Positions 3,001-56,287 of a stretch of DNA of 64,000 nt are shown one piece after another (position 1 is the first letter of the stretch; the number at the start of each line of letters is the position of its first letter). Position numbers and translations under genes: made by a program. Under the pieces are notes generated by a model. That model saw only the letters and a program-made list of their open reading frames with translations, was not told where the DNA came from and searched no databases. Source of the DNA: Cafeteria roenbergensis. Lineage: Eukaryota > Sar > Bigyra > Bicosoecida > Cafeteriaceae. Where the stretch lies: positions 62,001-126,000 of the forward strand of contig VLTN01000082.1 in the NCBI GenBank assembly GCA_008330645.1, read 5' to 3'.

Positions 3001-4286
3001 CCCTGCTGCGAGAGCGCGGCATGGTCACGCGCAAGCGACGCCACAAGCGCATCTACGGGGTGTCCTTCCTCGACGGCTCTGCTGCCGCGGCGCGGCCCCG
3101 GCTGGGCTGCATGTTCTTCGCGGTGGAAAGTTTCTCCGTGCTGGTGCACCTGGCGGTGTTCTGCGCGCTGCCGGCGCTGTGCCTCGTCTACGCGCTGCAG
3201 ATGCAGTACACCCACGGAGTGACGGTGGCCACTGCGTCGCAGCGGGCGCTCTCGCGGTACGACCTGGCCGAGTTCCCGCCGGTGCTGACGGGCAAGCTGG
3301 TGTTCGTCGTCCGACTCATCGTCATCGCCTGCCTGGCCTTCCTGGGGCTGGGGCTGCTGCGCATCCTGGTACGGTACCTCGCCCTGCCCAAGGGGATGCT
3401 TCGGACGGTGGTTCGCAAGGCCTTCGCCCTGGTGCTGGTCGTGGTCGTGTTTTCGATGTTCTTCGTGATCGGCCTGGTGCTGGCCTGGTTCGTGCTTGCT
3501 GCGGCGCTGGACCCGACCAGGTTCCTCCCGTACGGCGCTGGCGCCATCTGCGCCCTGGTGGTGGCCCTGACGACGTTCAAGCAGCTGAGCCGCGCGGCGC
3601 AGGTCTTGCGAGTGCGTATCCAGCAGGCGTTCAAGCAGTACATGGCCAAGGCGGCCTCCGCGGCCAAGTCGGCGATGGAGCAGACGGCCAAGTTTGAGCG
3701 GCAGCGCGAGGCACACGTGTTGCGTCGCAAGGCTGCCGGGGCAGGGGCGGCGGCGGGGGCGCCCGCGCCTCCCACGGAAGCCGAGGCTGCCGACTTCAAG
3801 GTCGAGGACATCTTCGCGCTCGTCAACTCGGACGGCGACGCAGAACTCACCCGCGCAGAGTTCGACGACCTATTCGAGCGGCTGAACGTGAATCTGAGCG
3901 CATCCAAGCGGGACCAGCTGTTCAGCATGAGCGACGCGGACGGCTCGGGCATGATCGACCAGCAGGAGTTCGTCGACGCGTGGGACCGGATCGAGGAGGA
4001 GATCATCCAGGACACGCTCGAGTCCCTGGGGGTCTCCGACGCCGCCATCGCCGGCTTCGTGCTGTACCTGCTGCTGCTGCTCGCCGTGGCGTTCGCGTTC
4101 ATCTTCACCGCCATCCGGGCGTGGGAGAACTCGTCCTCGTTCGAGGCCGTGGTGCAGTCGCTGCTCGTCACTGGGTCTGGCGTGCTTACGCAGGTCACCC
4201 GCGCCCGGCCCAAGGGCGAGGACGGCGACGAGCAGAGCATTTCCGAAATCGTGGACAGCGTCGTCAAGGGCGACGAGGCCTCATAG
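3..4286 (+). CDS. 5'-partial EF-hand multi-pass membrane protein
   Basis: The reading frame is open from the left edge of the window to a TAG-type stop at 4284-4286, so the N-terminus lies outside. An EF-hand (loop DRDKDGFVTTEE) lies near 165-215. A single hydrophobic segment near 1190-1265 is followed by a long Ala/Gly/Pro-rich linker with a run of about ten Asp (1985-2013) and a 24-nt tandem repeat. Four hydrophobic segments lie between about 3115 and 3600. Two further EF-hands (NSDGDAELTRAE and DADGSGMIDQQE) lie near 3825-3985, and a last membrane helix near 4045-4110. This suggests a Ca2+-regulated membrane protein, but I cannot assign it to a channel or transporter family. Bases 131-160 (CTAAC, pyrimidines, CAG) look like the 3' end of an intron, so part of 81-160 may be non-coding although it stays in frame. 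Family unknown; the function is inference. Confidence 0.7.
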   Translation, partial: RSNAKDVCFASQGSADFIPDTVSQGSVWSGSNDGSWGSLCEPLNPNFYFPRTRDTFDRDKDGFVTTEEFDEGVEALDRCCGSGCPYRSFCGSVSNQLFAPRPAAAGTSGSACCSRTGVVETFDFVNRLRELNDTSFIPLCQRNIEVRDAAVPAPAGAGASSVTASLWADDGHVRVHRVTEADPASSTDSNSSFTGATTSDPAAGLAFWAPNGGIPGLKMHRSDAEELIADIRDVYGPTSATGDVFVTIDVVGAPGVPGGRWVWTTRPIFLYLQPSLLQFLSGGLLNPPLRTYRVHMATSQCDAAATTGAGGAFRPGKPLSDVDHADLAARRAAVFQQLRTALTPRFQLEMRGVLVEVGENHQPLPDAPHLTAYAQRTDGSIVSAPFQTSNDESTTAAVLLSVGMALLVALALTGFLMVYMRSALKSRYSRERVRAKLLAVRAEAARSRQDKDTADKLEAEPHAAAGAAGAAAGSPTGSAAVASGGGGAAAASGKASAGADGASGASAHTQTQPLLAGQSSPPPAPGAVPGAARSADGKVAPPQAPAAARAPAGPAGAPGKAQPSVGKTAPAPAAPLQVKVDERAAVPDGAAIEAAAGDGAGTDGVDTGDLDSAVERRGFNPLETPIEVVNMLLVAPVRRQLVDSVNAFVNERCAVHVKPPSDDDDDDDDDDGGCCGCCGGGGASRSDAKRRSAAVRPAGPASAAGQVSPRPRAPGTTNLASLPSVTFDEFHDRYCAFTYSQDLSEVQSRAQIQGQLIMQFNMRVRGQVRETLQGVRWRTPDGAAPTSVDAGGVTAGQMLGTEPLPGAAAGGEGSAASGGEGSAASGGEGSAAAEKGEADGGSADAGTGSAASAAAAAATAAVAATAGADTTPEQQAAVAAAAATAAAAAADASKDKAPAKPATAAEPSKEEDPQPVAAPAAPAYDATDARLVDAFLARYCEVTKRYSSDSVLLTDVTNKPRRAADGSTVPGSTERGFMSLLNEFCASVGVEEPTHEEAMTLLRERGMVTRKRRHKRIYGVSFLDGSAAAARPRLGCMFFAVESFSVLVHLAVFCALPALCLVYALQMQYTHGVTVATASQRALSRYDLAEFPPVLTGKLVFVVRLIVIACLAFLGLGLLRILVRYLALPKGMLRTVVRKAFALVLVVVVFSMFFVIGLVLAWFVLAAALDPTRFLPYGAGAICALVVALTTFKQLSRAAQVLRVRIQQAFKQYMAKAASAAKSAMEQTAKFERQREAHVLRRKAAGAGAAAGAPAPPTEAEAADFKVEDIFALVNSDGDAELTRAEFDDLFERLNVNLSASKRDQLFSMSDADGSGMIDQQEFVDAWDRIEEEIIQDTLESLGVSDAAIAGFVLYLLLLLAVAFAFIFTAIRAWENSSSFEAVVQSLLVTGSGVLTQVTRARPKGEDGDEQSISEIVDSVVKGDEAS
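2433..2504 (+). repeat. 24-nt tandem repeat, three units, in coding sequence
   Basis: Three units starting at 2433, 2457 and 2481 share the pattern GGCGAGGGCTCTGCCGC; the last unit diverges at its end. Each unit encodes a Gly/Glu/Ser/Ala octapeptide and carries one copy of the GGCTCTGCC word discussed in the findings. Confidence 0.9.
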
Positions 4287-25235: not shown

Positions 25236-25839
25236 CCTGGGAGCACCGCCTCGTCTGCCGGGGCCCAGCGGGTCGTCCGGCGGGGGGCAGGTGCGGGCTG
25301 CGCTTCGCCCCAACCGCCGAGGCGAAGCGCTTCGGCAACTCGAACACCGACAGAGCCCGTCCCGCATCCCGGCCCGAACAGTCGCGGCGCTCGTCGCGCC
25401 GCCGGCAGCCCTCGCCCACGGCCGCGAAGCGGCCAGCTGGCCATGCTCTTGCCGTGGCGCTCGACTGTTTGCGAGTTGCGCGGTCCGTGTGGTCGGAGCC
25501 AAGCGCGATGACGGCGCGCAGGCGCCCCGCAAAGGCGCGTCCCATGCTTGCGGCCCCGCACTCGCCAGCGCGGCCGGCTAGTGTGGCTGCCGGCCCCACC
25601 CAGGCCCAGCGACCCGAGCGCTGCCCCGGGCAGTGCTCTTTTTTGTTGTTGTTGCGCATCAAACCGCGGTGGCCCCGCGCCACTCGCTCGGGCCGGCCGC
25701 GCTGCTCTGCGCCGCCCTCTGCGACAGCCACCGACGACGGTCCGTCGGCAGCGACCCCGCGCCCCCAGTCCGCACAGGGCGCAAGCGGCGGCCGCCTCAA
25801 CCTCCACCCAGCCCCCGCCACGCGCGCACGCGCCGGACC
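25236..25839. other. divergent intergenic region
   Basis: About 600 bases between the divergent SulP and nucleotidylyltransferase starts, probably containing both promoters. The only AT-rich word is a TTTTTTGTTGTTGTTG-like stretch at about 25629-25646. Part of it may code if the upstream SulP start is used. Confidence 0.4.
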
Positions 25840-27878
25840 ATGGCTGCCGCTCTCGCTCCGGGAGTCGACGCGGCCGTCGCCGCGCTGCACGCGCTGTGCC
25901 GCAAGTCCGGGCGCCGCGCCTGCCTGGTCGCTGCGGGCGCTGGGCAAGGCCTTCACTCCCGGCTCCTTGAGGTGCCTGGCGCGTCCGCCACCGTGCTCTC
26001 CGCGCACGTTCCCTACGCCCGGGAGGAGTTCCTCGCGTTCCTGGGCGCGCACGCCGATGCCGGCCCGGCGTCGTTTTGCTCGGCCGAGGCCGCCGACTTG
26101 CTTGCGGACGCAGCCCGGCGCCGCGCCGTGGACATGGTCCTCCGGCAGTCCGCGGGCGCAGGCCGAGCCGACGAGGACCACCCCCCAGGCGAGCTGGTCC
26201 GGCTGGCCACGGGCGTGGCCTGTTCGGCCACGCTTGCGACCTCGCGCGAGCACAAGGGCGAGCTCCGCGCCTTTGGCTGCGTCATGGACGGCGTCCACAC
26301 CTGGCGCATGCGGGTGCAGCTGGCAAAGACTGGCGATGCCGCCCTTGGCAGGGCGGCCCAGGAGCGCGCAGTGAGCCTTCTGTCGCTCTGGGCGCTCGCC
26401 GTCGCCGCCGGGCTTCCGGCCGGCCACTCCGAGGCAATTGCGCGCGCCGTCGGCGAGCAGGGCTTTCCGGTACCGAGCCTGCCGGCCGACGCGACGCTGC
26501 TCTCCCGTCACGGGCCCGTCGCGATTGCAGGGCTTGGCGCCGCAGCATCGGCCCCGGCAGCCAGCGAGGGCGCGGGCGTAGCCTCGCCAGCGCGCGAATC
26601 ATCATCCTCCTCGTCGTCGTCGTCGTCGTTGTCATCCTCCTCCGTCGCCGCCACAGCAGCAGCAGCAGCAGCAGAACCAGCAGCAGCAGCAGCAGCACTG
26701 CCGTCGAGCCGCGCCAACGTTGCGTGGCTGGAGCGCCTTCCGACTGCGCCCTCCCTCGCCCAAGTCGCGTCCGCGGCTCTGCCGTGCGCGCTGGTACTCC
26801 CCCGCGCAGCGTCGGCTGCAGAGGCGGAGCCCGCAGACACCGCCGCTGTGACGGCCCGCGCCACGCCGCCCCCCGGCTCCGTCGTGCTCAGCGGCTCGTT
26901 CAACCCCCTCCACGCAGGACACGAGGCGCTGCTCGCCGCCGCAGCGGCAGAGGCGGCCGCAGAAGACGCCAGGCTTGCTCTGGCGGGCACGCCCCACCCG
27001 CACGCCCCGCCTCCGCACTCCGACGCGGGCAGAGCCACGCTGGTAGAGCTCTCGGCCGTGAACGCTGACAAGGGCACCATCGACGCCGCAGCCCTTGCAG
27101 CGCGCCTCGAGCAGCTCTGCGGCCCGCTTCCCCGGGCAGAGCTGGCCGCGCTCGGCCTGGCAGAGCCGCCAGCGCGACTCCGAGACACCTACCCCGCCAC
27201 CCTCACTGGGTCCAGCGGGCGGTCGCTGCCGGCGCTGGTGACTTCCCGGCCGCTCTTCCCGGACAAGGCGGCCCTCATGCGGGGCTGCTGGCTGGTGCTG
27301 GGCGTGGACACTGTGGAGCGGCTCTGCAGCCCGCGGTACTTCGGGGGCGCCGCCTCAGGGGTCGCAAGAGCCCTCGCGAGGATCGAGGCGGCGGGCTGCC
27401 GGATCGTGGTGGCGGCGCGCCCGGCCGACGCCGCCACAGGCAGCGGACGGCTGGTCACACTGGCGGGTGAGTGGCGAGTGATACCGGCATGACAGGGGCG
27501 AAGGGGGGGCAGGGGGGGTGTAGGGGGGGGGGGCGAGGGCGATTGGTGGGAAGGCAGGGGTGGGGCTGTTCCTCGAGGAAGCAGCGGCAGTCGGGGATGC
27601 GAGCGGTTTTGCTGCCGAACGGCGTGTCTGTCCAACTATGGCTTGAACTCTCCCTCTCAACTATCCCCCCTGATTCGTGCGCAGATATCGCCCACATGAT
27701 TCCCTCGGCCTTCGCCCTGCGGCTGCCAGACGGCACACTGAGGCCGGCGGCAGGGTTCGAGGCGGAGGGCGCCTCTGCCGGCCCGCCTCCGCTCTTCGTG
27801 GCTCTGCCGGAGGCGGCGTTCCGTTCCGGCGCGTCGTCGTCGCTGGTCCGGGCGCAGGCTGCGGCCACGCCGCCTTGA
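25840..27878 (+). CDS. CinA-C-like / nucleotidylyltransferase fusion protein
   Basis: Two exons, 25840-27466 and 27685-27878, joined at a Gly/Asp boundary, give 606 aa. The first 210 residues resemble the CinA C-terminal (nicotinamide-nucleotide amidase-like) domain: the region VPYAREEF, then LATGVACSATLATSREHKGE. After a Ser/Ala-rich linker encoded by 26590-26700, a nucleotidylyltransferase begins with VVLSGSFNPLHAGHEALL, whose GSFNPLHxGH motif binds the nucleotide triphosphate. It continues with ELSAVNADK, LVTSRPLFPDKAALM and LVLGVDTVERLCSPRYF and ends with a segment matching the FVSIPADRFR / S-S-T-ELR end of plant proteins of this type. The same two-part layout is known from plant nucleotidylyltransferase-superfamily proteins. 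The reaction is unproven; NMN or a related nucleotide is a reasonable guess. Confidence 0.82.
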
Positions 27879-34895: not shown

Positions 34896-37800
34896 TCACC
34901 GCATGCGGGGCGCTGCGTGCCTTTCCCCGGCCGCGTTGGCCCCCTGCAGGTCGCCGGCGCCCCGCGAGCCGCGCACACGCGTGGACACCCTCCTGGGGCC
35001 GGCTGCGCTGCCGGTGGGGCTGCTGTATCCCGACTGCAGTCCCAGCCCATCCAGCGGCCGCCGGGACAGCGATGCCTCCGCTTGCGATCGACGAAGCCGC
35101 TCCTGGCTCCGCTCGAGCTCCAGCTGGCTCTCCCGGATCTCGCGGATTCGGGAAAGCAAGCCAGCGTCGGCCACGGTGCCCTCGCGGGCAGGCGCTGAGC
35201 CGGCCGCAGCAGGCCGCCGGGAGGGCAGCCGCGGCGGCGTCACAGCGCGCTGGTCAGAGCCTGGCCGCCCTGGGTGTGGCAGCGCCGCGTAGCCGCGCAT
35301 GCCCTGGCCGGGCACAGCCGGCAGCCCGCCGCCGGGACCAGCAACCGCGCCGCCAGCCACGCCGGCCGCAGCACCCTGGGGCTCACCCGTTGCCCGCTGG
35401 CCTCCACCAAGCGCCATCTCCCTGGCAGACGACGCCACATATGTGCCCGCGGCTCCCACTGGGGTGGGCCGTGGCTGGTGGCGCTGATGGGGCCGGGGCT
35501 TGGCCCGGGAGCGCCGACGCAAGTGTAGCATCACCGCGAGCACTTCGGCGAAACGATCCGCCGCGGCCTCCTCGCTGCACCCCACCATCATGCGGGCGCG
35601 CAAGGACACGAGCTCCCACGGGGTAGAGCCGTGAAGTGCCATGGCGGCCTCCACTTCGTCGAGGCGTCGCCGCACTGCAATGAGCGCATCGGCCGCGGCT
35701 GCCAGCACGCCCGACACCCCGGGCGGCCCAGTGCGGCTGGCAGAGCCCTGCGCGCACGCCTCGAGGAGTTCGGCGCAAAGCCTGGCCGACGCGAACCGGG
35801 GCGTCCGGCGGCGGCGACGCCTTCGAAGCCGGCGGGAGCGGCCCCGCCTCCTGCCGGCGGCGGCGGCGGCGGCGGCGGCGTGGCCAAGCAAGGCCGTAGC
35901 CACCTCGTCCTCGTCAGAGACGTCGTCTAGAGCGCCGTCAGAGATGTCGTGATCCACCCCCTCCCCGTCGCTGCCGCCATCGCTGGAGCCGCTGCTGTCG
36001 CTGCTGTCGCTGCCGCTGCTGCCATCGCTGCCGCTGCCACCGCTGCTGCGGCTGCGAGACCGATGGACGTCGCCCCTGGCCACTGCACGGTGACCTAGGA
36101 TGCGATGGAGCAACACGTGTCCGTTGGGCGCCATCAGGCACGGGTCAGCGCCGGCGAAACCCTTGGCCGCACCCATGCCAACAAGTACCATCACTCCTGC
36201 AGGAGTCACGGCGAGGTCACAGGGCTGTCGCGAACCCATCGCCAGCACGTACGTGGTGGCGAGCACCGCTGCCAGGGACGATGCGAGGTTCGACGACACC
36301 TCCACCAGAGCATCCCCAATGCTGGTCCCGCCGGCAGCGCCAGCAGCAGCAGCAGCAGCAGAGGCAGAGGCGGCGTCAGCTGAGGCGGCGGCGCCAGCAG
36401 CGGCGGCGGCGCCCCCTCTGAGGGCCGGGGACCCTCCGCTGGCAGGACCGACGTCAGCGCCGTCGCTGTCACTGCCGTCACTGTCGTCCCCTCCAGCCGA
36501 AGAGCTGATCCTGCCGCCGGCTCTGCCCGCGCGGGACGCCCCCCTCGCTGCCCCCCGCGCCACGTCATCCGTATGACTGCCTCGTCCCGCCGCGGGCTGA
36601 CCGATGCGCTCAAGCAAGGTGGCGGCGAGCCACCGAACGAGGCCCCGCTTCCCGTAGCCCCACAGGCCGCTGGTGCCAGCTCCGCGGCCGGCAGCCAGCT
36701 CTGCCGGGAGGGCAGCCCCTGGAGCCCTGGGAGGCGAGGGCAGAGCCATGCTCGCTGTGATGCCGCCGGTGGGTCTGGGCGAGAGACGGCGAGCCCTGCC
36801 GCCCCCACCGCCGCCAGCGGCGCCTCTGCGGGCAGCATCCCCGCCGGCACCGTCGCTGTCGCTGTCACCATCGATGCCGGAGCTGTCGGATCCGCTGTCA
36901 GCTGACTGACCGCGGGCTGAGGCTGCCCCACCATCATACGACGTCAGTGCAAAGTCGCTCACTGATGCGAGCTCTGCTGAACGGCCACGCCCCTTCGCGG
37001 CTGCGCTGCCGCGACGCAGCCTGCCAGCCGACCCCGACCGCCCGGCAGCTGCGTTCCCACTTCGTCTGGAAGGGTCCTCGTCGTCGAGCTCTGCCTCCCG
37101 CACGCCCAGCACCTCTGCCAGGGTTCGGGCCTCTGGCGGCGAGAGCGTCAGCCCCAGGAGGGCCGCCGCGCCGCTCCCCGCAGACCCACCGAGCGACCCG
37201 GGGGGCCCCAGCGGGGTCAGACCCATCACGGTCGGCAGAGCCGCGTCACCGACGGGGAGGCCTGCCTGCCGCCAAATCCCTCCCAGCAGAGCCCCGAGCC
37301 GTGACAGCTCCACTTCGCGGTGAAGTGCCTCTGCCGGTCCGTACGTGGCAGTCACGCACAGAGTCTGGCCCGACGTCAGCAGGGGCCTGGGAACGTGTCT
37401 CCGCAGAGTCACCCGCCCATCAGCCTCGCTGCCACCGCCGCCGCTGGCTGCCCCGCCAGCATCCAGCTCTGCATCCAGCTCCACCATGGCCCTCAGCCGC
37501 GCGGCCTCCTCCGCCTCCGCCGCCAGCACAGCAGCCGCCGCCTCCGAGTCAGCAGCCGTCGCCTCGGCCTCAGGGCCGTCGACGTCGTCCATGGGGATGA
37601 AGTGGATCATGGCTCTGCACGATCCTTCCGATTTCGAAGAGGCGATCACCCGGCTCGCGGAGGGAAGGATGCGCCGAGCGCAGAGCCCGGCAACCGGCAG
37701 AGCCACCCCAGCCACAGAGCGCAGCCCCGACGCCGACGAGTCCTTCCCGGCGGCGTCCTTGTAGCGGCCCCGGGCAGCAGCCTCGGCGGAGAAGGGGTCT

Positions 37801-40800
37801 GCCACAGCCGCAGCGGCGGCGGCCGGGCCGGACGCGGCTCGCGGACTGGCGTCAGTGGCCGCGGGCGCGCGACGAGAGGCGCTGCAGAGTTCGTCCAGGG
37901 CGGCGTCGTCGTCTGCGTCAGCGAGGGCCAGCAGCCCCAGTGGCCTGAGGAGCAGGACTGTGCCCTCACGCGCCGCCTCCGCCTCCGCCCACAGCGCCTC
38001 CGCCTCCGCCTCTGCTTCCGCCTCCGCCTTCGCCTCCGCGTCGGCCGCGACAGCGTCTGCGTCGGAGCCTGCGTCAGTGGCTGCGTCAGGCTTACGTTCC
38101 GGGGAATCGCGGGACGCTGCCTGCGCCTGCGAAACGCGCCGCCTCGCCCGGCGCTGGTCGATCGCCGCTCGCAGCGCCACCAGCCGAAACAGCGCCGACG
38201 GCAGGGCAGCGTCCGCCGAGCCGACGGACAGTCGGACCACTCGCGGAAACACGCACCGGTGCAGGGAGGAAGCCAGCTCTGCCGAGCGACGTCCCCTCGG
38301 GGCCGCCGCCGCGGTGGCGCAGGCAGCAGCTAGCTGGGAGCCCACCAGCGCGAGGAGACCAGCCTCCGCCGAGAAGGAGGGCCCCGCCAGCGACGCGTCC
38401 AGCACGGAGCGCGAGAGAGCGGCCGCGGCGGGGCCGAGGGCGGGCCGGGCTGCTGCGGCTTCGAACGCCGACCACAGAGTTCTGCGGCCGGCTGTAAGCG
38501 GGTGCAGCGCCGCGCGGTGGACCAGCACCCGGCAGAGCCCCTCGGCAGCGGCATGGCGGCCTGACGAGGGGCCCAGGCCGCTCTGGGCATCGGCGCTGAC
38601 GTCGCTGCCGCTTCGGCGCCACGACGCAGCCCGCACTGGTGGCGTTGCTCCCCCCACGGGGGCGCTTGGCAGCAGCAGCAGCAGCAGCGCAGAGACCAGC
38701 TCCGGGGTGATGGACACGTGATGCGCCAGCGACACCCGGGACACGGCAGCGACCGCGGCAGACGCAACGGCCGGGTCTGACGCCAGTGGCGAGGCCAGCA
38801 GCGACAGCGCCGCCCCCACAGGCAGCCCGCCGCGCCGGCGGAGCAACGCGTGTCGCGCAGCGGACAGAGCCGGGGCGGTTACGCGCGCCACCGGCGGGAA
38901 TCGCAGCACCGCTCTGGACTCGTCGCGTGTCGACCCCGGCGCGGTGGATGCCTCGTCGGACTGGCGCCTGATCTGCGCGCGATGGCGTTCTGCCACAAGG
39001 TAGACCGGGGCGCCTGACGGGGGACACGCCGCCAGGAGAGCGGAGAGCGCGGCAGGGTCGCCGAGCAAGGCGAAGCGGCCTGCCCAGAGCACGCAGCGCA
39101 CTTCACTCCAGAGGCCGCCGGAGCGGTGCATCGTTTCGCCAATGGGGACGCCACCGACGGCCGACGCCTGGGGCGGCCCAATCACCCGCCCATCAGCTGA
39201 TGGCGCCGAGATGACCGCGTCCCACGGTGCCCCGCTTGGCTCTGCTGACGAGTGGCCACCAAGCGCATGACACGCTGCAGATGCCGTCATGACGGCCGTT
39301 TGACGACGCGAAACCGCAGAGGCGGCAAGCAGCGCCGACCGTGAAACCGCCGCGGAAGCGTCGCGGAGGTCTCTCGCGGCAAGAGACTCGTCCGACGCGT
39401 CGCTGAGCGCGCTCGTCAGCGCAGCAGCAGCAGCGTCCGAAACCGCGCTGCTGACGTCGCCGCCGTCGTCGCCGCCGTCGTCGCCGCCGTCGCCATCGAC
39501 ACTGCCTTCCCCTCGTGAAGCTACGGCTCTGCCAGCAGCAGCAGCAGCAACAACAACAGCTGCAGCGCCGGCCGCTCCAGCGCCCAGCGGCGTCAGCAGC
39601 ATCGAGGGGAGAGCCGTTGGAAGGGTCCCAGTCCACACAGCGTCGAACGACGCCGGCAGCGCCTCTGCAAACACCTGCGACGCTGCCAGGTCCAGCGCCG
39701 CAGCAACCGCAGCAGCGGCCGGCCGGGCGTCTTGGTCGATCGCAGGCCCTGCCCGCAGCAAGACTGCCGACGGCGACACAAGCGGCGCCGGCGCATGGTC
39801 GATCGCAGATCCTGCCGCCTCCAGAGCAAACGAAAACCAACCGTCGGCTCTGCCGGCAGAGCTGTTGACGATGACCGCAGCTGTGGGGTCTGCCAGCAGC
39901 GGCGTCGAGGCGGCCACCGCTGCGAGCGACGCGGCGCACGACGCCAGCGCACGGCTCTGCCCGGTCCAAGACGCCTGGCTCTGCCGGTCGGGGCCAGCTG
40001 GTGGTTGGTGGCTGACCGCACCGTGACTCTCTGCTGCAACTGCGGCTGCGGCTTGCAGGAGTGAGGCCACGAGACGGCGGGCCGATCCTGCCGTCGATCC
40101 TTCCAGAAGCGGGCTGCGAAGTTGCGCCGAGCGCCCCTGGGGTTGCAGTGGCGCCTCCCTGCCATCGTCGGCATGCGCTGTTGCTGTTGCTGTTGCTGCT
40201 GCTGGCGGCGCTGCCGTGATCGTCGCAGCGGTCGCTCCGAGCGTGCCCCCGCCCAGCGCCAGCACGAGCGCTGCCACTGCTGCAGCCAGGCGGCGCCGGC
40301 GCCGACAACTCTCCGCTCGCGCGGATGCGGAGTTTCGCGCGGCGTCTGACGCATGCTTTCCGACCGTTTCGCGTCCATCCATCTGCTCGGCATCAGTGAC
40401 AGCTGCCTCAACCAGCGCAACATCCGCACGTGTCACCGCGACATCAGCGTCGCTCACTGCCACTGCTTCCGCCAGCACGCGCCACGCGAGCGCCACCCCT
40501 GGGTTGCAGCTAGCCTCAAGCAGCAGCTCTCCACACGACCACGACGAGCTCGAAGCCGCCGCCTCCGCCTCGGTGCCCGGCCAGTCACCCGGGTACAACG
40601 AAACTGCCACCCTTCCTGACACAACCCGCCCTTGGCGATCGACCAAGGGGAATGCCCCCCAGGCAACGGCCCCGCCTCGCGCCGCCGCGCCCCCGCCCGC
40701 GCCGCCGCCCGCGCCCCCGCCTGAGCCGGATGCTGACCCCTCCCTGGGCCGGCCGGGCCTGCTGCCTGCGGAACCCGCCGCAGCGGAGGCAGAGGGCACT

Positions 40801-43800
40801 CCGCCGTCCTGATGAACCACAACGACCAGCCGCGCGTCAGCCGGTAAGTCGCACACACGGCAGGGCAGAGCCGACCACGAAGTGCCCCGCCCCCACTTCG
40901 CGCCTTCCACAGCGGCTGCCCATCCGCCTCTGCTGCTGCGGCCAGCGTCGCCTCCCACGGGTCTCGAAACCGCGGGGCGTGAGACGGCGTCGCCGCAGAC
41001 CACGCCGGCGGAGGCGACGACGACCATTCTGCACCTCACGCGCGACACGGACGCTCTGGGCGGAACCCGATGCCATGCTGACTGGGCTGCGATGGGTTCG
41101 TGATCGGCCAGGCGTCCCGACGCCACGTCTCGCGGCTCTGCAGGCTCGAACTGCGATAGGTACGAAGCGCTCCTGAGCTCAGCCGTCCTTGGCACTGGCG
41201 GCGAGGACTGCGCGAGCCAGGGGCTGCCACCGAGCGACGCAGCTGCGGCCTGCGATGGGGCGAGGCGCAGGGAGAGGGGCCTGGCCAGCAGCGGCCAGGC
41301 GGCCTCGTGCTGCGGCGACGAAACCGCTCCCTGGCTCCGTCCCGCCACGGCCCTTGCGATGGACGACAGAGACGGCGCCCGGAGCGCGGAGGGCAGCGAC
41401 GCGGAGATGGCGGCGCTGACGCGCTGAGATGTCGTCACGGTGGATCCTTCCGCCGATCCTTCCGCAAACCCTTCCGCCGCGGCCTCGTCCGCCTCGGCCT
41501 GCTCGGCTGCAGCTTGCAGCGCCGCACTGACCACCGAGTCAGCGTCGAATCCCGCGGCCCTCAGTTCGCCGTCAACCGCGGCCTGGTCAATGGTCGCGCT
41601 GCCGCTCTGGCAGTGAGCCCGGCCACGGCCCAGCAGCAGCGCCGTGAGCGACACGGCGCGTCGCTCAGCCTCGTCCTCGGAAGACGTCGCCCCAGCCGCA
41701 ACCGGCAGCCACGGCAGAGCCAGCTCCACCGCCTGGTCCACCGCCGCCTGCACAGCGACGCCAGCCAGCGCCGCCGCTGCCTGCAGAGCCACCATATCCG
41801 CCGGAGAGAACGACCCCCTCCCAGAGGCGTCCGAGCGGGGCGCCGGACTCGCTTGAGCGCCACCGCGGGCAGCCGGCGTCGCCCCGCTGAACAGCTCTGC
41901 CGGCGAGAGACGCCCCGGCAGAGCTCTCCCGTCCTTGTCGGTGACCAGCATCACTCCCACGCAACGACGGCGCTGCAGAGCCGGTCCACTTCCCGGCAGA
42001 GCCACCACGACTGGCAGCGCCACTGCGTGGTTGCAGCGATACTCCTCGTTCACCGCCGTGGCGTTCACCTCGTCCGCCCACGCCTCGGCGGTCTCGGCGC
42101 CATTCGGGTGCACCGGCAGAGCCGACGGCCCACGCGCCGAGACGGTGACCTGGCCGTCCGGCGAAACCGCCATCACCATGACCCTGCCTGTCCGGGCGGC
42201 GATGGCGCAGAGCCCGACCATGGGCAGAGCCTCGCCGAAGGGGAAGGCGAGCGTCTCCGCCGCCTTGGCCGACTCCGCCTGGGCCTCTGCGGATCGATCA
42301 GCTGACTCCTTGTCGCCGTCCGGCGGGCTGCCCGTGGGTAGGGCCACGCCGTTGGCGGCAGGCAGGGTGGCCACCGACGGCGGGCCGCCGATGAGGCCTG
42401 ACAGCAGCGACTGCTCCGGCAGCTGCTGCCACACCCCGGCAGCCACGGCGGCTTGGGCGGCCGGCTTGCCCCTGCCAAGCGCCCCCCGTGAACCAGGTCC
42501 ACGCCCACCGGGGCGCGCCCCCGCCTCGGCCTCCGGCAGAGCCGCAGCGGCTAAAAGGCGAGACGTCGCCGTGGGCGCGGCCCCGGCTGGGTGGCCGGCC
42601 GCACGACGCACCAGCATGGCGGGTGGCGCGAGGGCGGCCGGCGTCGGCGTCGGCGCGCCGCTCGACCCGGCCAGCGCGCTCGCCGGTGCGGCATCGGCGG
42701 CAGCACGTGCAGCAGTGTGGGCGGCGCCGCCACTCTCAGCTGCTGCGGCAGCCGCAGCAGCTGCGGCAGCGACAGAATAGCGCGCGAACGAGGAGAATGC
42801 CTCCGGCCGCCACGGGCCCGGGGCCGCGGTGGTGGCGTCGGCCGCTACCTCGAACAGCACGGCGTCGGTGGCGCAGAACCACCCAGACACCGCGTCCAGA
42901 ACAGCCGACAGCGTCATTGGCAACGTCGCCATGGGGTCACTTCGCTCGCTCTGCCACGTTCCCTGCCACCTGGCATGCGCTCGCGGCGCTGCAGCGCCCG
43001 GGGCGCCGCCCGAACCAGCCGCGCTATGCCTGGCAGCCCCCCCTTCAGTTGCATTTGTATCTGCAGTTGTATCTGCAGTTGCAGTTGTATATGCTAGTTC
43101 AATGTGGCCAGCGGCGTGCTGGGCTCCGCACTCCCCAATCACGGCAGCGGCGGAACGTACCGCGGCGACGTCGGCGCAGCCTGCCCGCAGCACTGCCATG
43201 AGGAGGGGTGACGCGAGCGCGAGGTCGGGATGGAGGAGCGACGCAGAGTCGCTCGCTTCGGCCGCCGACGTCGCTGCTTCGGCCACTTCGCCGACATCGT
43301 CGTCACCACCGCCACCGCCACTGGCACCAACACCGGCACCAGCACCAGTCTCAGCACCACCACCACCGGTACCACCACCTGTCTGGGCAGAGCTGTCGGC
43401 GTCCGCGTGAACCAGCTCTGCCGCAGCCTGCCGCGCCCGACGACGCTCTGCCGCCCGCGCCCGCGCTAGCGCCGCCTCTGCACGCACGGCGCCGACGTCC
43501 GAATCCTGGCTCTGCCGGCAGAGCGCCAGCTCCCTGAGCGCACCAAAGTCTGCAGCGGCCTCCGACGCCGCCACCGCCACCACAGCCGCGCCGGCAGAGC
43601 CGTCCACGGAGGAGCCCCCCACGGCGTCTCGCGGGTGCGGCTGCACGGGGCTGTAGAGCGGGGAGAGGAGGGCTGCCAGCACGGTGTCGCTCCACCCGCC
43701 CACCGTGGCGGCTTCGCTGAACAGAGCTCGTCGCAGCAGCCGGGCCGACACCACCGCCAGCCGCACGCCGCCGCGGCCAGCCACCCACTGGCTCACGTCG

Positions 43801-46800
43801 GCAGAGCCCTCCGCGGACCGCGCCAGCAGTGCTTGCGCGCCGAGCACGTCGCCCACACCGGCAGAGCCGGCCTCAGGTCCCGGTGCAGAGCCACTTCGAG
43901 CCACGTCCAGGTCAATGCTCCACTGCCGAGCGGCAGCTGCTGCCGCGGCTGCCGGTGCAGCGAGGGGCGCGGTGGTCCCGGTAGAGCCGCTGAGAGCATC
44001 CACTCGCCTGACCAACACTCCCGAACCATCGGACCCCTTGTGACGGGGGGAAATGCGGGCCGATCCTTCCAGAATCACCAGCACCCCGAGGTGCGCGACC
44101 CGCGGCAGCGCATCGGCGGGCACAGCGGCAGAGCCAACGACGACGGGCCTTGCGCGGTGCAGGCGCTCTCCTGGCGGCACCGTGGCTGGCAGAGCCCTCG
44201 ACGCGATCTCGACCACCACTCTCCAGGGCAGAGCCGCGGTGAGTGACTCCCTGCAGAGAGCAGCTGCAACTGCTTCGGCTGCAGGCCCGGCGCCGAGCAA
44301 CGCTGCGTCGCTCAGGTGCACTCCAGGACGACGCGCGGCACCGGCACCGGCACCGGCACCGGCACCGGCACCGGCAAGTTCACCACCAGCACCACCACCT
44401 CCAGCAGCGGATGCCGCAGCGGCGGCGGCGGCGGCGGCAGCAGCAGCAGAGGCGGCAGCAGCAGCAGAGGCGGCGGCAGATGCCAGAGCCGCCTCCGTGC
44501 CGATGGGTGCGCTCCCCCTCAGGTGGATTGGCGCGGCGGCACTGCCCGCCGCAGCGCCGCTCGCGGGTCCAGCCGCCGCTGCTGCTGCCTCCACGCCCGG
44601 CGCCGCCCACCCGGCGGCCCGTCCGCCTGCGACAGCGGAGGCCGACGCTACCCTGGCGCCCTCCCGACCCGCTGCCGGCGAGGCTGTCGCCGTCGCGCGG
44701 CTGCTGTGGTGCCGGTGAGCGTCGTTGAGACCGGGTGACGAGAACCCGGCCGATCGTTTCGCCGCGGCGAAGAGAGACAGCAGGGGTGAGCGACGCCGAG
44801 CGACGGTCCTGTGCGCTCGACGAGAGGCGGTGAGAGACGCTTCAAGGCGCTCCTGCTCCGTGAGAGACGCCGAGAGATCCACCTCCATTACAGCAAGGCG
44901 TTGCTGGGAGTCGCTCAAGCGTTGCTCCAGGCGAGCAATGCGCTCTGCCAGCGCAACCAGCGTCACGCGCACATCACGATCGGCATCCGACACCCCATCC
45001 GGCATCGCCACCCCACCGGGATAGACGGCCCCGCCAGCAGAGCCGTGGTGCGCCGCGCCGACGGACCGCGTCTCCAGGGGCGCCGGCTCCCGCGCTGCAG
45101 CGCTCGGCCAGTCCTGCTGAAACGACAGGCTCACGCCCGCCACCTCGCCGTAGCCAGCGGCAGGCCAAACGGGCTCTGCCACCGAGCCTCCCCGCGTGCC
45201 TGCGGCAGAGCCAGCCCTGGCAGAGCCGTGCGACGGGTGCACGAGCGCCACCGGGGGGGTGGGCGCCGTGGCTCTGTCGGGGCCGGGGCTCCGCGCTGCG
45301 GGGGCGGTTTCGCCGCTCTGTGAGCCGCGGCGCGACCTCCTCTGTGCGGGGGTGGCGGAGGCGTCGGCGGCGGCGGCGGTGACTCCCGTCACAGAGGCTG
45401 GCGGCGGCCTAACTGCTGCTGCTGCTGCTGATGCCGCTGCCGCCTCCGAGGCAGGGGCGGCAGAGGCGAATCCCGTGCCGGCTCCGGGCTGGTGGCCCCG
45501 TGACCGGCTCACGGCTGGGCCGAACGCGGCGAGTGCCGATGGCGGCAGCGGCGACGGCAGACTGGGTCGCTCGGTCGAAAGATCGTCCGGGCGGAGCGGG
45601 CGGTCGGCAGCTGATTGGCCGAGCGCGCCCGCCTGCGAGCTCGCGCCCGCGGCCGCCCTGCCGCCGTCCGACGATCGTCGAAGGCGGCTCTGCCGGTGCT
45701 GCAGGGGGGACGACGTGTCGCCGTCGCGACCGCCAGCGTCGACGTCTGAGGCAGCGGCCCCGCGGCGGAGCGGCGACGAGACAATGGGCGCTCGACCGCG
45801 GCTGGCCATCGATATGGCTGCTTTGGTCTCCGCCTCCGCCCTGTGGTGGCGCTCCCTCGAGGCAGCGCGGCTGCGGTCGACGCGGGACACCACCCGAGCT
45901 GCCGCGTCCACGGCGTCGCCGGAGCCGCCGGCGCCGGCTCCGGACACGCTACCGGGGCCGCTGCCGCCGCTGCCGCCGCTGCCGCCGCCGGTGGCACGGG
46001 CGTGGGCGGCGTCCGCCTCCCAGCCGTGCAGCGCCTCTCGCGGCGAGGCCGCGCGGCTGTGGCCCGAGGCGGACTCTGGGCTGTGCATGTGGCTCTGCCA
46101 CCCGTCTGCCCAGCCGCCCTGCCACGCAGAGCCCGCGTGGCCGGGCGTGCCTGCCATGTAGGGAGGGCTGGGCTGCGAGTGCGCTCCCAAGAAGGAGGAG
46201 TGATCGTGCACTGACAGGCCGCTGACTCCGGCCTGATGATAGAAGCCCCCGTGGTGGGGCTGCTGCGGCTGGTAGTGCAGCCGGCGCTGCTGGTCGAAGC
46301 GGTCGCCGCTGACCACCGGGTGCTCCGACTCGGCTGCGGCGGGCAGCGCCCCCGCACGGGAGGCCGCGCTGTAGGCCAGCACCGCGGCCTCCACCTCTCG
46401 GGGGGAAAGCCGCGCAACCGGGAGAGGGCCGCCCATGGGGATGCCGGGCGAGGCCTGGCCGGGGTGGACAGGCCCGCGGGGCGAATACGCCCCCGACTGG
46501 TCCGGCGAGGGCGCGCGCACAGCCAGCGGGCTGGCGGCGTAAGGGTGGCCAGCCGGGAAGAATGCGCCCGGGGCAGTCCCGGCAAAGGGCGGCGGCATGG
46601 CGAGGGGAGCGGGCTGGCCGGCGGTCGACCAGCCGTGCGCGGGCGCTCGCCCTGCGGCTGTTGGGGACGCAGGCTCGCCCGCCGCCGGCTCCGCGCGCCG
46701 GGATGGCGACACGCCGTCCTTCCGGGGGCGGCTTCGGCTCCGGTGGCGGTCGGAGCGGCGATCAGCGGCGGGTCTGCCGGCGGATTGCATTGGCGACGCC

Positions 46801-46913
46801 GGCTCCGCAAGCGTTGCGCCGCTCGCCCGCGTCCACGACTGGGGCCGGTGGTCCGCAGGCCTGTCAGATGGTGCCCTGAGGGCAAGCCCGTCTGGCGCGC
46901 GCGGAAGGGCCAT
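34896..46913 (-). CDS. giant PI3-kinase-family-like pseudokinase
   Basis: A single uninterrupted frame on the minus strand, 4005 aa from the ATG 46911-46913 (the frame is open to 47399). Approximate order by residue: Pro/Ser/Gly-rich region 1-640; coiled coil 650-710 (LAERIARLEQRLSDSQQRLA); cyclic-nucleotide-binding-like barrel 900-1100 (HLGVLVILEGSARIS); GAF-like region 1320-1700; PI3K-type C2 2010-2110 (CDLPADARLVVVVHQ, then AVAWGAFPLVDRQGRVVSGR); a hydrophobic stretch near 2195; Ala-rich helices 2500-2950; kinase N-lobe from about 3070 (LPVAGLCARRILPSASRVI); C-lobe 3500-3800. ATTYVLAMGSRQPCDLAV aligns without gaps to the PI3K segment VATYVLGIGDRHNDN, and 18 positions on the DFG is GMG. The lysine of VIFK is also replaced (VTAT). 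The family is inferred from these patterns; loss of catalysis follows if the alignment is right. The C-terminal helix (CSEEAAADRFAEVLAVML) resembles the PI3K end. Confidence 0.68.
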   Translation of the reverse strand: MALPRAPDGLALRAPSDRPADHRPQSWTRASGATLAEPASPMQSAGRPAADRRSDRHRSRSRPRKDGVSPSRRAEPAAGEPASPTAAGRAPAHGWSTAGQPAPLAMPPPFAGTAPGAFFPAGHPYAASPLAVRAPSPDQSGAYSPRGPVHPGQASPGIPMGGPLPVARLSPREVEAAVLAYSAASRAGALPAAAESEHPVVSGDRFDQQRRLHYQPQQPHHGGFYHQAGVSGLSVHDHSSFLGAHSQPSPPYMAGTPGHAGSAWQGGWADGWQSHMHSPESASGHSRAASPREALHGWEADAAHARATGGGSGGSGGSGPGSVSGAGAGGSGDAVDAAARVVSRVDRSRAASRERHHRAEAETKAAISMASRGRAPIVSSPLRRGAAASDVDAGGRDGDTSSPLQHRQSRLRRSSDGGRAAAGASSQAGALGQSAADRPLRPDDLSTERPSLPSPLPPSALAAFGPAVSRSRGHQPGAGTGFASAAPASEAAAASAAAAAVRPPPASVTGVTAAAADASATPAQRRSRRGSQSGETAPAARSPGPDRATAPTPPVALVHPSHGSARAGSAAGTRGGSVAEPVWPAAGYGEVAGVSLSFQQDWPSAAAREPAPLETRSVGAAHHGSAGGAVYPGGVAMPDGVSDADRDVRVTLVALAERIARLEQRLSDSQQRLAVMEVDLSASLTEQERLEASLTASRRAHRTVARRRSPLLSLFAAAKRSAGFSSPGLNDAHRHHSSRATATASPAAGREGARVASASAVAGGRAAGWAAPGVEAAAAAAGPASGAAAGSAAAPIHLRGSAPIGTEAALASAAASAAAAASAAAAAAAAAAAASAAGGGGAGGELAGAGAGAGAGAGAARRPGVHLSDAALLGAGPAAEAVAAALCRESLTAALPWRVVVEIASRALPATVPPGERLHRARPVVVGSAAVPADALPRVAHLGVLVILEGSARISPRHKGSDGSGVLVRRVDALSGSTGTTAPLAAPAAAAAAAARQWSIDLDVARSGSAPGPEAGSAGVGDVLGAQALLARSAEGSADVSQWVAGRGGVRLAVVSARLLRRALFSEAATVGGWSDTVLAALLSPLYSPVQPHPRDAVGGSSVDGSAGAAVVAVAASEAAADFGALRELALCRQSQDSDVGAVRAEAALARARAAERRRARQAAAELVHADADSSAQTGGGTGGGGAETGAGAGVGASGGGGGDDDVGEVAEAATSAAEASDSASLLHPDLALASPLLMAVLRAGCADVAAVRSAAAVIGECGAQHAAGHIELAYTTATADTTADTNATEGGAARHSAAGSGGAPGAAAPRAHARWQGTWQSERSDPMATLPMTLSAVLDAVSGWFCATDAVLFEVAADATTAAPGPWRPEAFSSFARYSVAAAAAAAAAAAESGGAAHTAARAAADAAPASALAGSSGAPTPTPAALAPPAMLVRRAAGHPAGAAPTATSRLLAAAALPEAEAGARPGGRGPGSRGALGRGKPAAQAAVAAGVWQQLPEQSLLSGLIGGPPSVATLPAANGVALPTGSPPDGDKESADRSAEAQAESAKAAETLAFPFGEALPMVGLCAIAARTGRVMVMAVSPDGQVTVSARGPSALPVHPNGAETAEAWADEVNATAVNEEYRCNHAVALPVVVALPGSGPALQRRRCVGVMLVTDKDGRALPGRLSPAELFSGATPAARGGAQASPAPRSDASGRGSFSPADMVALQAAAALAGVAVQAAVDQAVELALPWLPVAAGATSSEDEAERRAVSLTALLLGRGRAHCQSGSATIDQAAVDGELRAAGFDADSVVSAALQAAAEQAEADEAAAEGFAEGSAEGSTVTTSQRVSAAISASLPSALRAPSLSSIARAVAGRSQGAVSSPQHEAAWPLLARPLSLRLAPSQAAAASLGGSPWLAQSSPPVPRTAELRSASYLSQFEPAEPRDVASGRLADHEPIAAQSAWHRVPPRASVSRVRCRMVVVASAGVVCGDAVSRPAVSRPVGGDAGRSSRGGWAAAVEGAKWGRGTSWSALPCRVCDLPADARLVVVVHQDGGVPSASAAAGSAGSRPGRPREGSASGSGGGAGGGAGGGAAARGGAVAWGAFPLVDRQGRVVSGRVAVSLYPGDWPGTEAEAAASSSSWSCGELLLEASCNPGVALAWRVLAEAVAVSDADVAVTRADVALVEAAVTDAEQMDGRETVGKHASDAARNSASARAESCRRRRRLAAAVAALVLALGGGTLGATAATITAAPPAAATATATAHADDGREAPLQPQGRSAQLRSPLLEGSTAGSARRLVASLLQAAAAVAAESHGAVSHQPPAGPDRQSQASWTGQSRALASCAASLAAVAASTPLLADPTAAVIVNSSAGRADGWFSFALEAAGSAIDHAPAPLVSPSAVLLRAGPAIDQDARPAAAAVAAALDLAASQVFAEALPASFDAVWTGTLPTALPSMLLTPLGAGAAGAAAVVVAAAAAGRAVASRGEGSVDGDGGDDGGDDGGDVSSAVSDAAAAALTSALSDASDESLAARDLRDASAAVSRSALLAASAVSRRQTAVMTASAACHALGGHSSAEPSGAPWDAVISAPSADGRVIGPPQASAVGGVPIGETMHRSGGLWSEVRCVLWAGRFALLGDPAALSALLAACPPSGAPVYLVAERHRAQIRRQSDEASTAPGSTRDESRAVLRFPPVARVTAPALSAARHALLRRRGGLPVGAALSLLASPLASDPAVASAAVAAVSRVSLAHHVSITPELVSALLLLLLPSAPVGGATPPVRAASWRRSGSDVSADAQSGLGPSSGRHAAAEGLCRVLVHRAALHPLTAGRRTLWSAFEAAAARPALGPAAAALSRSVLDASLAGPSFSAEAGLLALVGSQLAAACATAAAAPRGRRSAELASSLHRCVFPRVVRLSVGSADAALPSALFRLVALRAAIDQRRARRRVSQAQAASRDSPERKPDAATDAGSDADAVAADAEAKAEAEAEAEAEALWAEAEAAREGTVLLLRPLGLLALADADDDAALDELCSASRRAPAATDASPRAASGPAAAAAAVADPFSAEAAARGRYKDAAGKDSSASGLRSVAGVALPVAGLCARRILPSASRVIASSKSEGSCRAMIHFIPMDDVDGPEAEATAADSEAAAAVLAAEAEEAARLRAMVELDAELDAGGAASGGGGSEADGRVTLRRHVPRPLLTSGQTLCVTATYGPAEALHREVELSRLGALLGGIWRQAGLPVGDAALPTVMGLTPLGPPGSLGGSAGSGAAALLGLTLSPPEARTLAEVLGVREAELDDEDPSRRSGNAAAGRSGSAGRLRRGSAAAKGRGRSAELASVSDFALTSYDGGAASARGQSADSGSDSSGIDGDSDSDGAGGDAARRGAAGGGGGGRARRLSPRPTGGITASMALPSPPRAPGAALPAELAAGRGAGTSGLWGYGKRGLVRWLAATLLERIGQPAAGRGSHTDDVARGAARGASRAGRAGGRISSSAGGDDSDGSDSDGADVGPASGGSPALRGGAAAAAGAAASADAASASAAAAAAGAAGGTSIGDALVEVSSNLASSLAAVLATTYVLAMGSRQPCDLAVTPAGVMVLVGMGAAKGFAGADPCLMAPNGHVLLHRILGHRAVARGDVHRSRSRSSGGSGSDGSSGSDSSDSSGSSDGGSDGEGVDHDISDGALDDVSDEDEVATALLGHAAAAAAAAGRRRGRSRRLRRRRRRRTPRFASARLCAELLEACAQGSASRTGPPGVSGVLAAAADALIAVRRRLDEVEAAMALHGSTPWELVSLRARMMVGCSEEAAADRFAEVLAVMLHLRRRSRAKPRPHQRHQPRPTPVGAAGTYVASSAREMALGGGQRATGEPQGAAAGVAGGAVAGPGGGLPAVPGQGMRGYAALPHPGRPGSDQRAVTPPRLPSRRPAAAGSAPAREGTVADAGLLSRIREIRESQLELERSQERLRRSQAEASLSRRPLDGLGLQSGYSSPTGSAAGPRRVSTRVRGSRGAGDLQGANAAGERHAAPRMR
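44337..44376. repeat. hexanucleotide GGCACC/GGTGCC repeat in coding sequence
   Basis: About six tandem GGCACC units lie inside the giant frame and encode an alternating Gly-Ala run on the minus strand. The codons stay in frame. Confidence 0.9.
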
Positions 46914-47358: not shown

Positions 47359-47823
47359 ATGCGCACCATCAACACGTCTGCCAAGTTCCGCTTGGACACG
47401 CTGTTCCTGGTTCACTCCGTCGTGGCGTGGGCGTCGGGCGCGTTCGCGTTCCTCCTGCCGCACGTGTTCGAAGCGTTCATGGTGCCGCACACGGACACTG
47501 AGGGATGGCACCCCGGAGGCTCCGAGAAGATCGTCCACCTCGTCGTCCGGCTTTACGGGGCCATCATCCTGGCGCAGGGCTTCATCACGTGGACCGCCCG
47601 GTCGGTTGGGGACGGCGCGATGCGGAAGGGTCTGGTGCAAACGTATGCTCTGATGTTTGCGCTGACCTTTATTGCGCTGCTGCGCGCCCAGCTCACAGGC
47701 GGCATGCTCGCCCTGAACTGGCTCAACGTGTTCATGTTCGGCGCGCTGAGCGGGTTCTACTCCTGGTTCGTGTTCGTGCAGCCGCCCACGGTGTACGAGC
47801 TTCCGGGCAGGACCACCGCGTGA
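47359..47823 (+). CDS. small four-helix membrane protein of unknown function
   Basis: A single exon of 154 aa from ATG 47359 to the stop at 47821-47823. Four hydrophobic segments are seen at about residues 10-32 (TLFLVHSVVAWASGAFAFLL), 58-78 (HLVVRLYGAIILAQGFITW), 88-108 (YALMFALTFIALLR) and 115-138 (LNWLNVFMFGALSGFYSWFVF). There is no signal peptide or catalytic motif. Proteins with this size and layout occur in plants and algae without known function. It is convergent with the ABM-domain gene 304 bases away. That it is a real gene is well supported; the function is unknown. Confidence 0.75.
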   Translation: MRTINTSAKFRLDTLFLVHSVVAWASGAFAFLLPHVFEAFMVPHTDTEGWHPGGSEKIVHLVVRLYGAIILAQGFITWTARSVGDGAMRKGLVQTYALMFALTFIALLRAQLTGGMLALNWLNVFMFGALSGFYSWFVFVQPPTVYELPGRTTA

Positions 47824-54293: not shown

Positions 54294-56287
54294 TTAGAGC
54301 TGCGACTGCGACGCGGCAGCCGCGCTCTTGGCGTCGGCGGGGGAGTCCGAGTGGGCGGCGCGAGCACCATCCCTGCCAGGCGTGCGCCGGTCGTCTGTCT
54401 GGGCATCTCCTGGCGCGCCAGCTGGAGACGGTGGCGACGTCGGCATCGCGGCGCCGACTGCGGTGCCGTGGTTGGCCGGCGCAGAACCTCGCGACTGGGC
54501 GCCCAAGAAGCTTCCAGCGCCCGATTGTCTCAAGGATATTCCTTGCTCCAGGGCCTGTGCGCGCTTTCTCCGCTGCTTGAAAGCTAGCCGGACGAGGGAC
54601 TTGATCTCCTCGTTGAGCTCGAGCGCCGACTGCTCGAAGAGCTCTTCGACGTCCTTGCGCAGCTCCATGGTATTGCGCTGGACGAGCTCTTCGACTTCAT
54701 CGAGCATGGCGTCCAGCCCCGTGCGCTTGGTCTTGAACTGGTTCTTCAAGAGCATCATCTGAGCTCGAAGACGCTGCCGCGACCGCTTCAGCTTGTCGTA
54801 CTGTTCGTTGAAGTTGGTGGAAATGACGGTGATTGGCACGGCAAGCACCAAGATGCCACAAAACGACGTCACCACGGCAATGACCTTGCCAAGAGGCGTA
54901 ATTGGGACCTCGTCCCCATACCCAACTGCGTCGAGCCGATGCGGTTGGACGGACAGCAGGGCAAGGCAAGTGTTTGTTCGGACAGAGCCACGGGGACCGG
55001 GCAGGGGAAGGACGTCGACTGCGCGCGCAAACGTGCGGCCGCCGCTCGTGCGCGTGGCCTCTCACCTGTGGTCATGGTGATGATGCACCACCAAAATGCC
55101 GCAGGAATTGAAATGAACGGAGTGCACTTGTTGTCGAAACGGACGAAGCACTGCTGCTTTTCGTCCCACTGGCCATGCTCAGCATAGAAAATGGCCGTCG
55201 AAAACAGCACCGTGCCAATCAGGATGACAACCAGAAGCATGAGGAGCGGCTGGAACGATGTCGCCATCGCCTTGGTAAAAACTTTGACCCACGAAAGGTA
55301 CCTAGAGAGCTTGAACACCCGAAATACCCGGACCAGCCGAATGATTCGAAACACGGCGCTTGAACCACCCGTGGCGCTCGAGCCCATCGCAAGTTCCACA
55401 TAAAAGGGCATGATGGCAAGAAAGTCGATGACATTCAGCGGCGACTTGATAAAGTGGCCCAGCCTTGGGGTTGAGATGACACGGCCCACGAATTCGAACG
55501 TGAAGCAAATGATGCAAACCAGCTCGATGGTCGACCACACGATGTCGTCGTCGGTCGACTGGTCGAAGTCCGGAAGAGTCTCCAGCACAAACGCAGTGCT
55601 GGACACGCCGATCAGCAGCATGATGAGCACTGCAAGAAAGTACGCTGCCGGTGAGGAGTTGGGGTCATCAAGTAGAGCCCACAGCCCTTCGCGGATTCGA
55701 GACACGAGCTTCTGCGTCTCGGGCTCCTGGCCCAGCGGCCGCGAGTCCGCCTCGACCGTGTCCTCGCCCCACTTGAGTCCCTCTTCGTCGGACGACCCCG
55801 ACAACTCATCCGAAACGCTTCGCTCCCGCCTGGAGGCCCGCCTGCGAGCGCTTGTCGTGTGCCCCCTGGTGGCTGCGGAAGTCGGCTCCGATTGCGGAGC
55901 AGCAGGAGCCGAGCTTCGGCGCCCTTCCTGGGGAAAGGCGCGAGGACCCACCACGACAGTCGCTGGGGCCTGGCCTGGACTCAGTGTTCTGCGCTCAACG
56001 GGGGCGGAGCGCGTGGCCCTGGGCGGAGGCAGCGTGGACGACGCAAGGGAAGCAAGCGCATCCCTCGCCCCCAACGCGGGAGCATTGCGATGCACGCGCT
56101 GCAGCCACGCCGGAATGAGCCGCGAAGCCACCGCTAGTTTGCCCTCACGCGCCCTCTGAGCTGGCAGACGCTGCCACCGTGCCCCTCGCAACTGTGGAAA
56201 ACGTTTCGACTGTCGTCTCCAGCCCTCCTGAGGCACTTGCCTGGCCTCCCAAGCTGCAAGGGGCGCGACAAGGCGGGAAAGCGGCAA
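54294..56287 (-). CDS. voltage-gated potassium channel subunit, 5' end unresolved
   Basis: Two clear exons on the minus strand: up to 55066, and 54294-54925. Six membrane segments are present: S1 near YFLAVLIMLLIGVSSTAFVL, S2 near IELVCIICFTFEFVGRVI, S3 near LNVIDFLAIMPFYVEL, S4 with regularly spaced Arg in FRIIRLVRVFRVFKLSRYL, S5 FQPLLMLLVVILIGTVLF and S6 SFCGILVLAVPITVIST. The junction rebuilds the selectivity filter exactly: TMTT-VGYGDEVP. A cytoplasmic coiled coil (DAMLDEVEELVQRNTMELR) follows. No N-terminal T1/BTB domain is seen. The frame is open to 56287 but has no ATG, so a 5' exon is missing from the model. One candidate runs 56431-56495 with a GTGAGC donor and would join at about 56246; this is tentative. 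Confidence 0.85.

Follow-up and report, generated by a model that had tools for sequence, protein, structure and literature searches.

The window, ie the whole stretch of 64,000 nucleotides that was analysed, has a GC content of 62-76% in 2-kb bins, mostly about 72%. Its nuclear-type eukaryotic genes include those for Cwc15, an oxysterol-binding protein, an Alg9-type mannosyltransferase, a sulfate permease, an ABC1 kinase and an ion channel. No tRNA gene was found in the window and no Rfam family was matched. A GC content of about 70% and 1.67-1.89 introns per gene are among the values given for Cafeteria-like bicosoecids in one report (PMC6972860).

The minus strand carries an open reading frame, P0001, of 4005 codons plus the stop. 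The existence of a 12-kb frame at 34896-46913, and both of its ends, had been proposed from the letters alone and were borne out by the frame listing and by stop counts. The stop-to-stop frame has no stop in 4171 codons, compared with 45, 39, 46, 54 and 59 stops in the other five frames. A longer form of the protein could begin at a GTG at 47399, which is an unlikely start because it would fall within a plus-strand frame of 154 residues (47359-47823). That frame is head to head with P0001 and encodes a hydrophobic protein which matched no Pfam family at E<=1. The GC3 of P0001, in windows of 200 codons, is 0.64-0.86, compared with 0.80-0.90 in eight training genes, and its codon bias is weaker than that of the neighbouring genes. 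Alanine makes up 24% of the residues, and 57% of the protein is of low complexity by an entropy measure. The features assigned to the locus, in order along the protein, are as follows.

34896-46913, minus strand: open reading frame P0001, first ATG at 46913
44814-44996, minus strand: residues 640-700, charged stretch with a heptad-like pattern, candidate coiled coil (judged by eye from the sequence)
43722-44246, minus strand: residues 890-1064, region resembling a cyclic-nucleotide-binding (cNMP) fold
41739-42236, minus strand: residues 1560-1725, claimed GAF-like region, unsupported
40590-41033, minus strand: residues 1961-2108, PI3K-type C2 with a Gly-rich insert inside
40224-40304, minus strand: residues 2204-2230, Arg cluster followed by a hydrophobic stretch, possible membrane helix (Kyte-Doolittle)
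38244-39122, minus strand: residues 2598-2890, weak PIK helical-like region
37194-37706, minus strand: residues 3070-3240, N-lobe candidate of ambiguous placement (hhalign)
36114-36311, minus strand: residues 3535-3600, catalytic loop with the segment after it
36216-36236, minus strand: GSRQPCD where GDRHxxN is expected (alignment)
36171-36179, minus strand: GMG where DFG is expected (alignment)
35538-35603, minus strand: residues 3771-3792, possible C-lobe end, weak
35079-35162, minus strand: residues 3918-3945, another charged stretch, candidate coiled coil (judged by eye from the sequence)

Within the possible membrane helix, the 19 residues from 2209 onwards are more hydrophobic than any other stretch of that length in P0001 (Kyte-Doolittle mean 1.98).

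Resemblance to the PI3K family was measured with a profile built from eight aligned PI3K/PI4K sequences, of which two were checked. In the least selected test, every six-frame open stretch of the window that was 100 codons or longer was cut up, and the resulting 511 pieces were scored against this profile with hhalign. The first three ranks all fell to P0001: the C2 piece (29.6), the catalytic piece (27.6) and a C2 piece overlapping that of rank 1 (23.5). Rank 4 was a noise frame (22.9), and ranks 5 and 6 (22.7 and 22.6) were the ABC1 kinase of the window, a true kinase-fold gene which provided an unplanned yardstick for the profile scores. The hhalign scores were reached by none of 150 shuffles for the C2, none of 60 for the kinase span and none of 150 for the catalytic piece. 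When the C-terminal half was aligned, its two best local matches were again the C2 (E 0.013) and the catalytic loop (E 0.034). The HH-suite probabilities were low, 3.4% for the C2, 1.5% for the catalytic loop and 1.5-7% across the matches, and the case therefore rests on ranks and shuffles.

With hmmsearch and the same profile, the C-terminal half came first of 350 targets with three pieces in order, at an E-value (0.93) that is not significant alone. In an ordered-block test, where each target was scored with its own composition and its own shuffles, P0001 scored 23.3; 5000 local shuffles gave a mean of 8.3 and a maximum of 22.6, and 14 control rows had z-values of -1.5 to 1.34. The block traceback puts the N-lobe block at 3053 and also uses pieces at 2173, 2252 and 3921, which were judged spurious. 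In a previous form of the block-chain test P0001 came out above all of 1000 shuffles, yet scores as high or higher were obtained by 217 of the 363 six-frame windows and by 6 of the 11 control rows; that comparison was dropped because all targets had been scored against the unusual composition of P0001. Unfiltered BLASTP searches of the eight sequences ranked the C2 and catalytic matches first, at 38% over 34 residues to the C2 of PIK3CA and 40% over 35 to the catalytic loop of yeast Vps34, both with E in the range 0.017-0.044 for this tiny database. An off-diagonal match at 655-689 had an E of 0.54-1.1. Filtering for low complexity removed the catalytic match and left a shorter C2 match, at E 9.7. 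Together these comparisons support a resemblance of the C-terminal half to PI3K which appears faint and better than chance.

The first strand of the C2 taken alone (segment 1880-1975) scored at chance level, 54 of 60 shuffles being as good. The first C2 block is identical at 7 of 27 positions to each of three sequences, with Vps34 giving the top score, and the second is identical to PIK3CA at 11 of 27; for the catalytic loop the best match is yeast Vps34. The C2 and the catalytic loop are both above chance and stand in the order that the sequence-only reading had given. The parts said to lie between and behind them are weaker: in the helical region, residues 2598-2627 aligned by hhalign to template positions 232-261, in order, a match equalled by 5 of 60 shuffles. 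For the end of the C-lobe, residues 3771-3792 aligned to 695-716, also in order, and shuffles did as well in 21 and 23 of 60 cases for two cuts. The N-lobe gave two matches that are mutually out of order. The weaker, at 3209-3220 (template 506-517), is in order, with 10 of 60 shuffles as good. The stronger, at 3095-3111 (template 527-543), is out of order, and was equalled by 0 of 60 shuffles with a short cut and 1 of 60 with a longer cut. Because the placement of the N-lobe is contradictory, loss of the ATP lysine (VIFK) cannot be called, and the earlier claim to that effect was not accepted.

Of the curated PI3K-type models, only that of the C2 responded. The whole of P0001 matched no Pfam family at E<=1, and NCBIfam gave nothing for P0001 and 4 of its segments. 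Among 8 segments and 10 tighter ones, the sole PI3K-type Pfam model to respond was PI3K_C2: one of the 8 segments matched at E 0.019 and a further, longer segment at E 0.091, and the best match, in one of the 10 tighter segments, was at E 0.0039 and 17.6 bits (cut-off 26.4). Neither PI3_PI4_kinase nor PI3Ka, the helical model, matched any of the 18 segments at E<=10. Among the profiles that had been put forward for this protein, PI3K_C2 thus responded below its cut-off, and the PI3Ka, PI3_PI4_kinase, CNMP-binding and GAF models had no Pfam match. There was no FAT or FATC match in the 18 segments, residues 3800-4005 included, at E<=10, with the kinase model missed equally. PIPK models had no match in the whole protein (E<=1) or the 18 segments (E<=10), Pfam being insensitive on P0001. 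The C-lobe is expected to end within residues 3700-3830, which instead matched DUF7551 at E 0.034 and 14.6 bits (cut-off 52.6), a match taken as chance.

At E<=1 the PDB gave 6 distinct sequences for the whole protein, most of them of the Gly/Ser-linker type and none a PI3K. With the C2 segment, the C2 of PI3K-alpha (2enq) was seventh of 10 chains, at E 1, and the first six align to the Gly-rich insert. The catalytic segment, as a single sequence, found one chain only, an unrelated rubredoxin reductase, at E 0.47. AlphaFold models made without an alignment were unusable, with a mean pLDDT of 39.5 for residues 2980-3830 and 36.4 for 1930-2180. With P0001 or a part of it as query, no relative was confirmed in viral contigs scanned twice (41 and 4 pattern stretches) or in genome contigs scanned once (11), the collections being without eukaryotic genomes as such. 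A scan of the viral contigs with human Vps34 likewise confirmed no relative (1 pattern stretch).

At the catalytic site the letters are as had been read, GSRQPCD from 36236 and GMG at 36179. In an ungapped block of 43 residues, DRH is aligned with SRQ, the metal-binding Asn with Asp, and HIDFG with LVGMG. Identities in this block are 14 for yeast Vps34, 12 for PI3KC2A, 11 each for human and Arabidopsis Vps34, 9 and 10 for two class I enzymes and 8 each for the PI4Ks. Provided that the alignment is right, P0001 has neither the DRHxxN nor the DFG by which an active PI3K or PI4K is recognised.

Sensor-like domains had been claimed in front of this core, and of these the cNMP-like fold was weakly supported and, on the alignment, without ligand residues. 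Residues 890-1064 were equalled by none of 100 shuffles in hhalign, with no Pfam match. Against a profile of six cyclic-nucleotide domain sequences, residues 1014-1064 ranked first of 511 by a small margin (19.4 compared with 17.8). The phosphate-binding residues of a cyclic-nucleotide domain are a Glu and an Arg. Neither is kept in the alignment, and a classical cyclic-nucleotide site is consequently unlikely. The GAF part of the claim was not supported: 24 of 100 shuffles were as good, the region was outside the top 10 of 511 and there was no Pfam match, a negative which may partly reflect the small profile, of three sequences only. In the PDB the cNMP-like and GAF-like segments matched two transferrin-binding chains (E 1.4-1.5) and a chain of uncharacterised function (E 1), and these hits were taken as chance.

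Of the readings of P0001, descent from a PI3K whose catalytic residues were lost has the best support, and that support is partial. What had been described as a PI3K-derived pseudokinase shows C2 and catalytic-loop matches in the claimed order; no curated cut-off was reached, and the N-lobe and helical evidence is weak or contradictory. Judged on the sequence, the protein is probably a non-catalytic relative of PI3K with a C2-helical-kinase core, and its most likely role is that of a scaffold or allosteric partner. The analysis shows the frame, the letters at the aligned site and the C2 and catalytic-loop matches, in order and above chance. We infer that the entire domain set is of PI3K descent, that activity is absent and, from the anatomy, that the protein works as a scaffold.

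It is unlikely that only the C2, and perhaps the helical region, derives from a PI3K; the catalytic loop would then be a coincidence in a protein rich in Ala, and P0001 a C2-bearing scaffold and no pseudokinase. The response of Pfam to the C2 alone would fit such a protein, as would the preference of the catalytic segment for an unrelated PDB chain, the loss of its BLASTP match under filtering and the contradictory N-lobe. Against this, the catalytic piece took the second rank of 511, scored above all of its 150 shuffles and is placed and ordered as expected after the C2. Somewhat less likely again is a complete lack of PI3K ancestry, every match being a coincidence in low-complexity sequence. 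Curated thresholds were never reached, the lowest E-values of single matches lie at about 0.004-0.04 and the HH-suite probabilities at 1.5-7%, all of which such a coincidence would explain; it would not readily explain why two separate regions of one frame took the top two ranks of 511, nor an ordered-block score above all of the 5000 shuffles.

A gene that is decaying or mis-read, ie a once-active PI3K drifting unconstrained or a frame with retained introns, is highly improbable. The weak codon bias of P0001 and the presence of a GT-AG intron in another gene of the window could be taken that way, but 4171 codons are free of stops where the other frames have 39-59, and several catalytic positions are changed while the adjoining pattern residues are kept.

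If P0001 is indeed a non-catalytic relative of PI3K, its C2-helical-kinase core, of PI3K descent, would have retained the domain order and some of the sequence pattern. The catalytic Asp and His would be gone, together with the metal-binding Asn and the Asp of DFG, and the protein would have acquired long inserts rich in Ala, Gly and Ser and about 1900 residues at its N-terminal end. The surfaces of the C2 and the pseudokinase might then dock membranes or the partners of true PI3K complexes. Oligomerisation could be provided by the helical stretches seen by eye near both ends (640-700 and 3918-3945), and the long low-complexity stretches may be linkers.

The C2 motif, the catalytic-loop pattern and the order C2 - (helical) - kinase appear to be common to P0001 and to the class III and class I enzymes, Vps34 and p110. 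P0001 differs from them in the substitution, on the alignment, of the catalytic Asp and His, the metal Asn and the DFG Asp, and in its large inserts and about 1900 extra N-terminal residues. TRRAP/Tra1 acts as a scaffold, and the kinase domain of such PIKK pseudokinases is flanked by FAT and FATC domains. Vps15 is a pseudokinase of the protein-kinase type and not of the PI3K type. As the pseudokinase partner of Vps34 (PMC7619004), Vps15 offers a precedent for a non-catalytic regulatory partner, a role proposed for P0001 by analogy only. In the same source the PIKK TRRAP is the pseudokinase named among the members of the PI3K superfamily (PMC7619004). P0001 is, like TRRAP/Tra1, very large, and would likewise have a catalytically dead kinase domain of that superfamily. 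Unlike TRRAP/Tra1, P0001 has a match to a PI3K-type C2 and gave no FAT/FATC match in the segments scanned, with a method (Pfam) that is insensitive on this protein. According to a 2013 survey, no pseudo-phosphoinositide-kinase had previously been described, and pseudo-PIPKs were then reported (PMC3823935). Those of ciliates and other protists are, as P0001 would be, relatives of lipid kinases with substituted catalytic residues (PMC3823935). They belong to a different kinase family, and the two from Tetrahymena are strong in Pfam (e-53 and e-45; PMC3823935), whereas P0001 is not.

No PI3K-type pseudokinase was named in titles or abstracts among the literature matches listed, subscription papers lying mostly outside that coverage. 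P0001 might be the first such protein (C2-helical-kinase, non-PIKK), a giant scaffold with an inert cNMP-like fold in front and a non-enzymatic regulator of PI3K complexes, though we incline very slightly towards doubting it. If true, P0001 would be a natural test of what the body of a PI3K does without catalysis.

A second frame in the window, P0002 (18012-20618, minus strand), resembles the alpha subunit of F1-ATPase (PDB 3oee, E 8.1e-19; Pfam ATP-synt_ab, E 8.8e-19). It has GPASAEPG opposite the P-loop GDRQTGKT of 3oee, and appears to be a pseudo-ATPase subunit enlarged by long Ala/Ser-rich sequences. Since P0002 seems to have kept an enzyme fold and lost its nucleotide site, a pseudo-enzyme reading of P0001 is made less odd.

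The ion-channel gene has a 140-base GT-AG intron (54926-55065, minus strand) between two frames, which join, when the interval is removed, at the filter motif TVGYGD. The frame at 25582-27489 on the plus strand has weak CinA-like (E 0.0013) and cytidylyltransferase-like (E 0.0048) parts, both under the curated cut-offs, and contains the sequence SFNPLHAGH.
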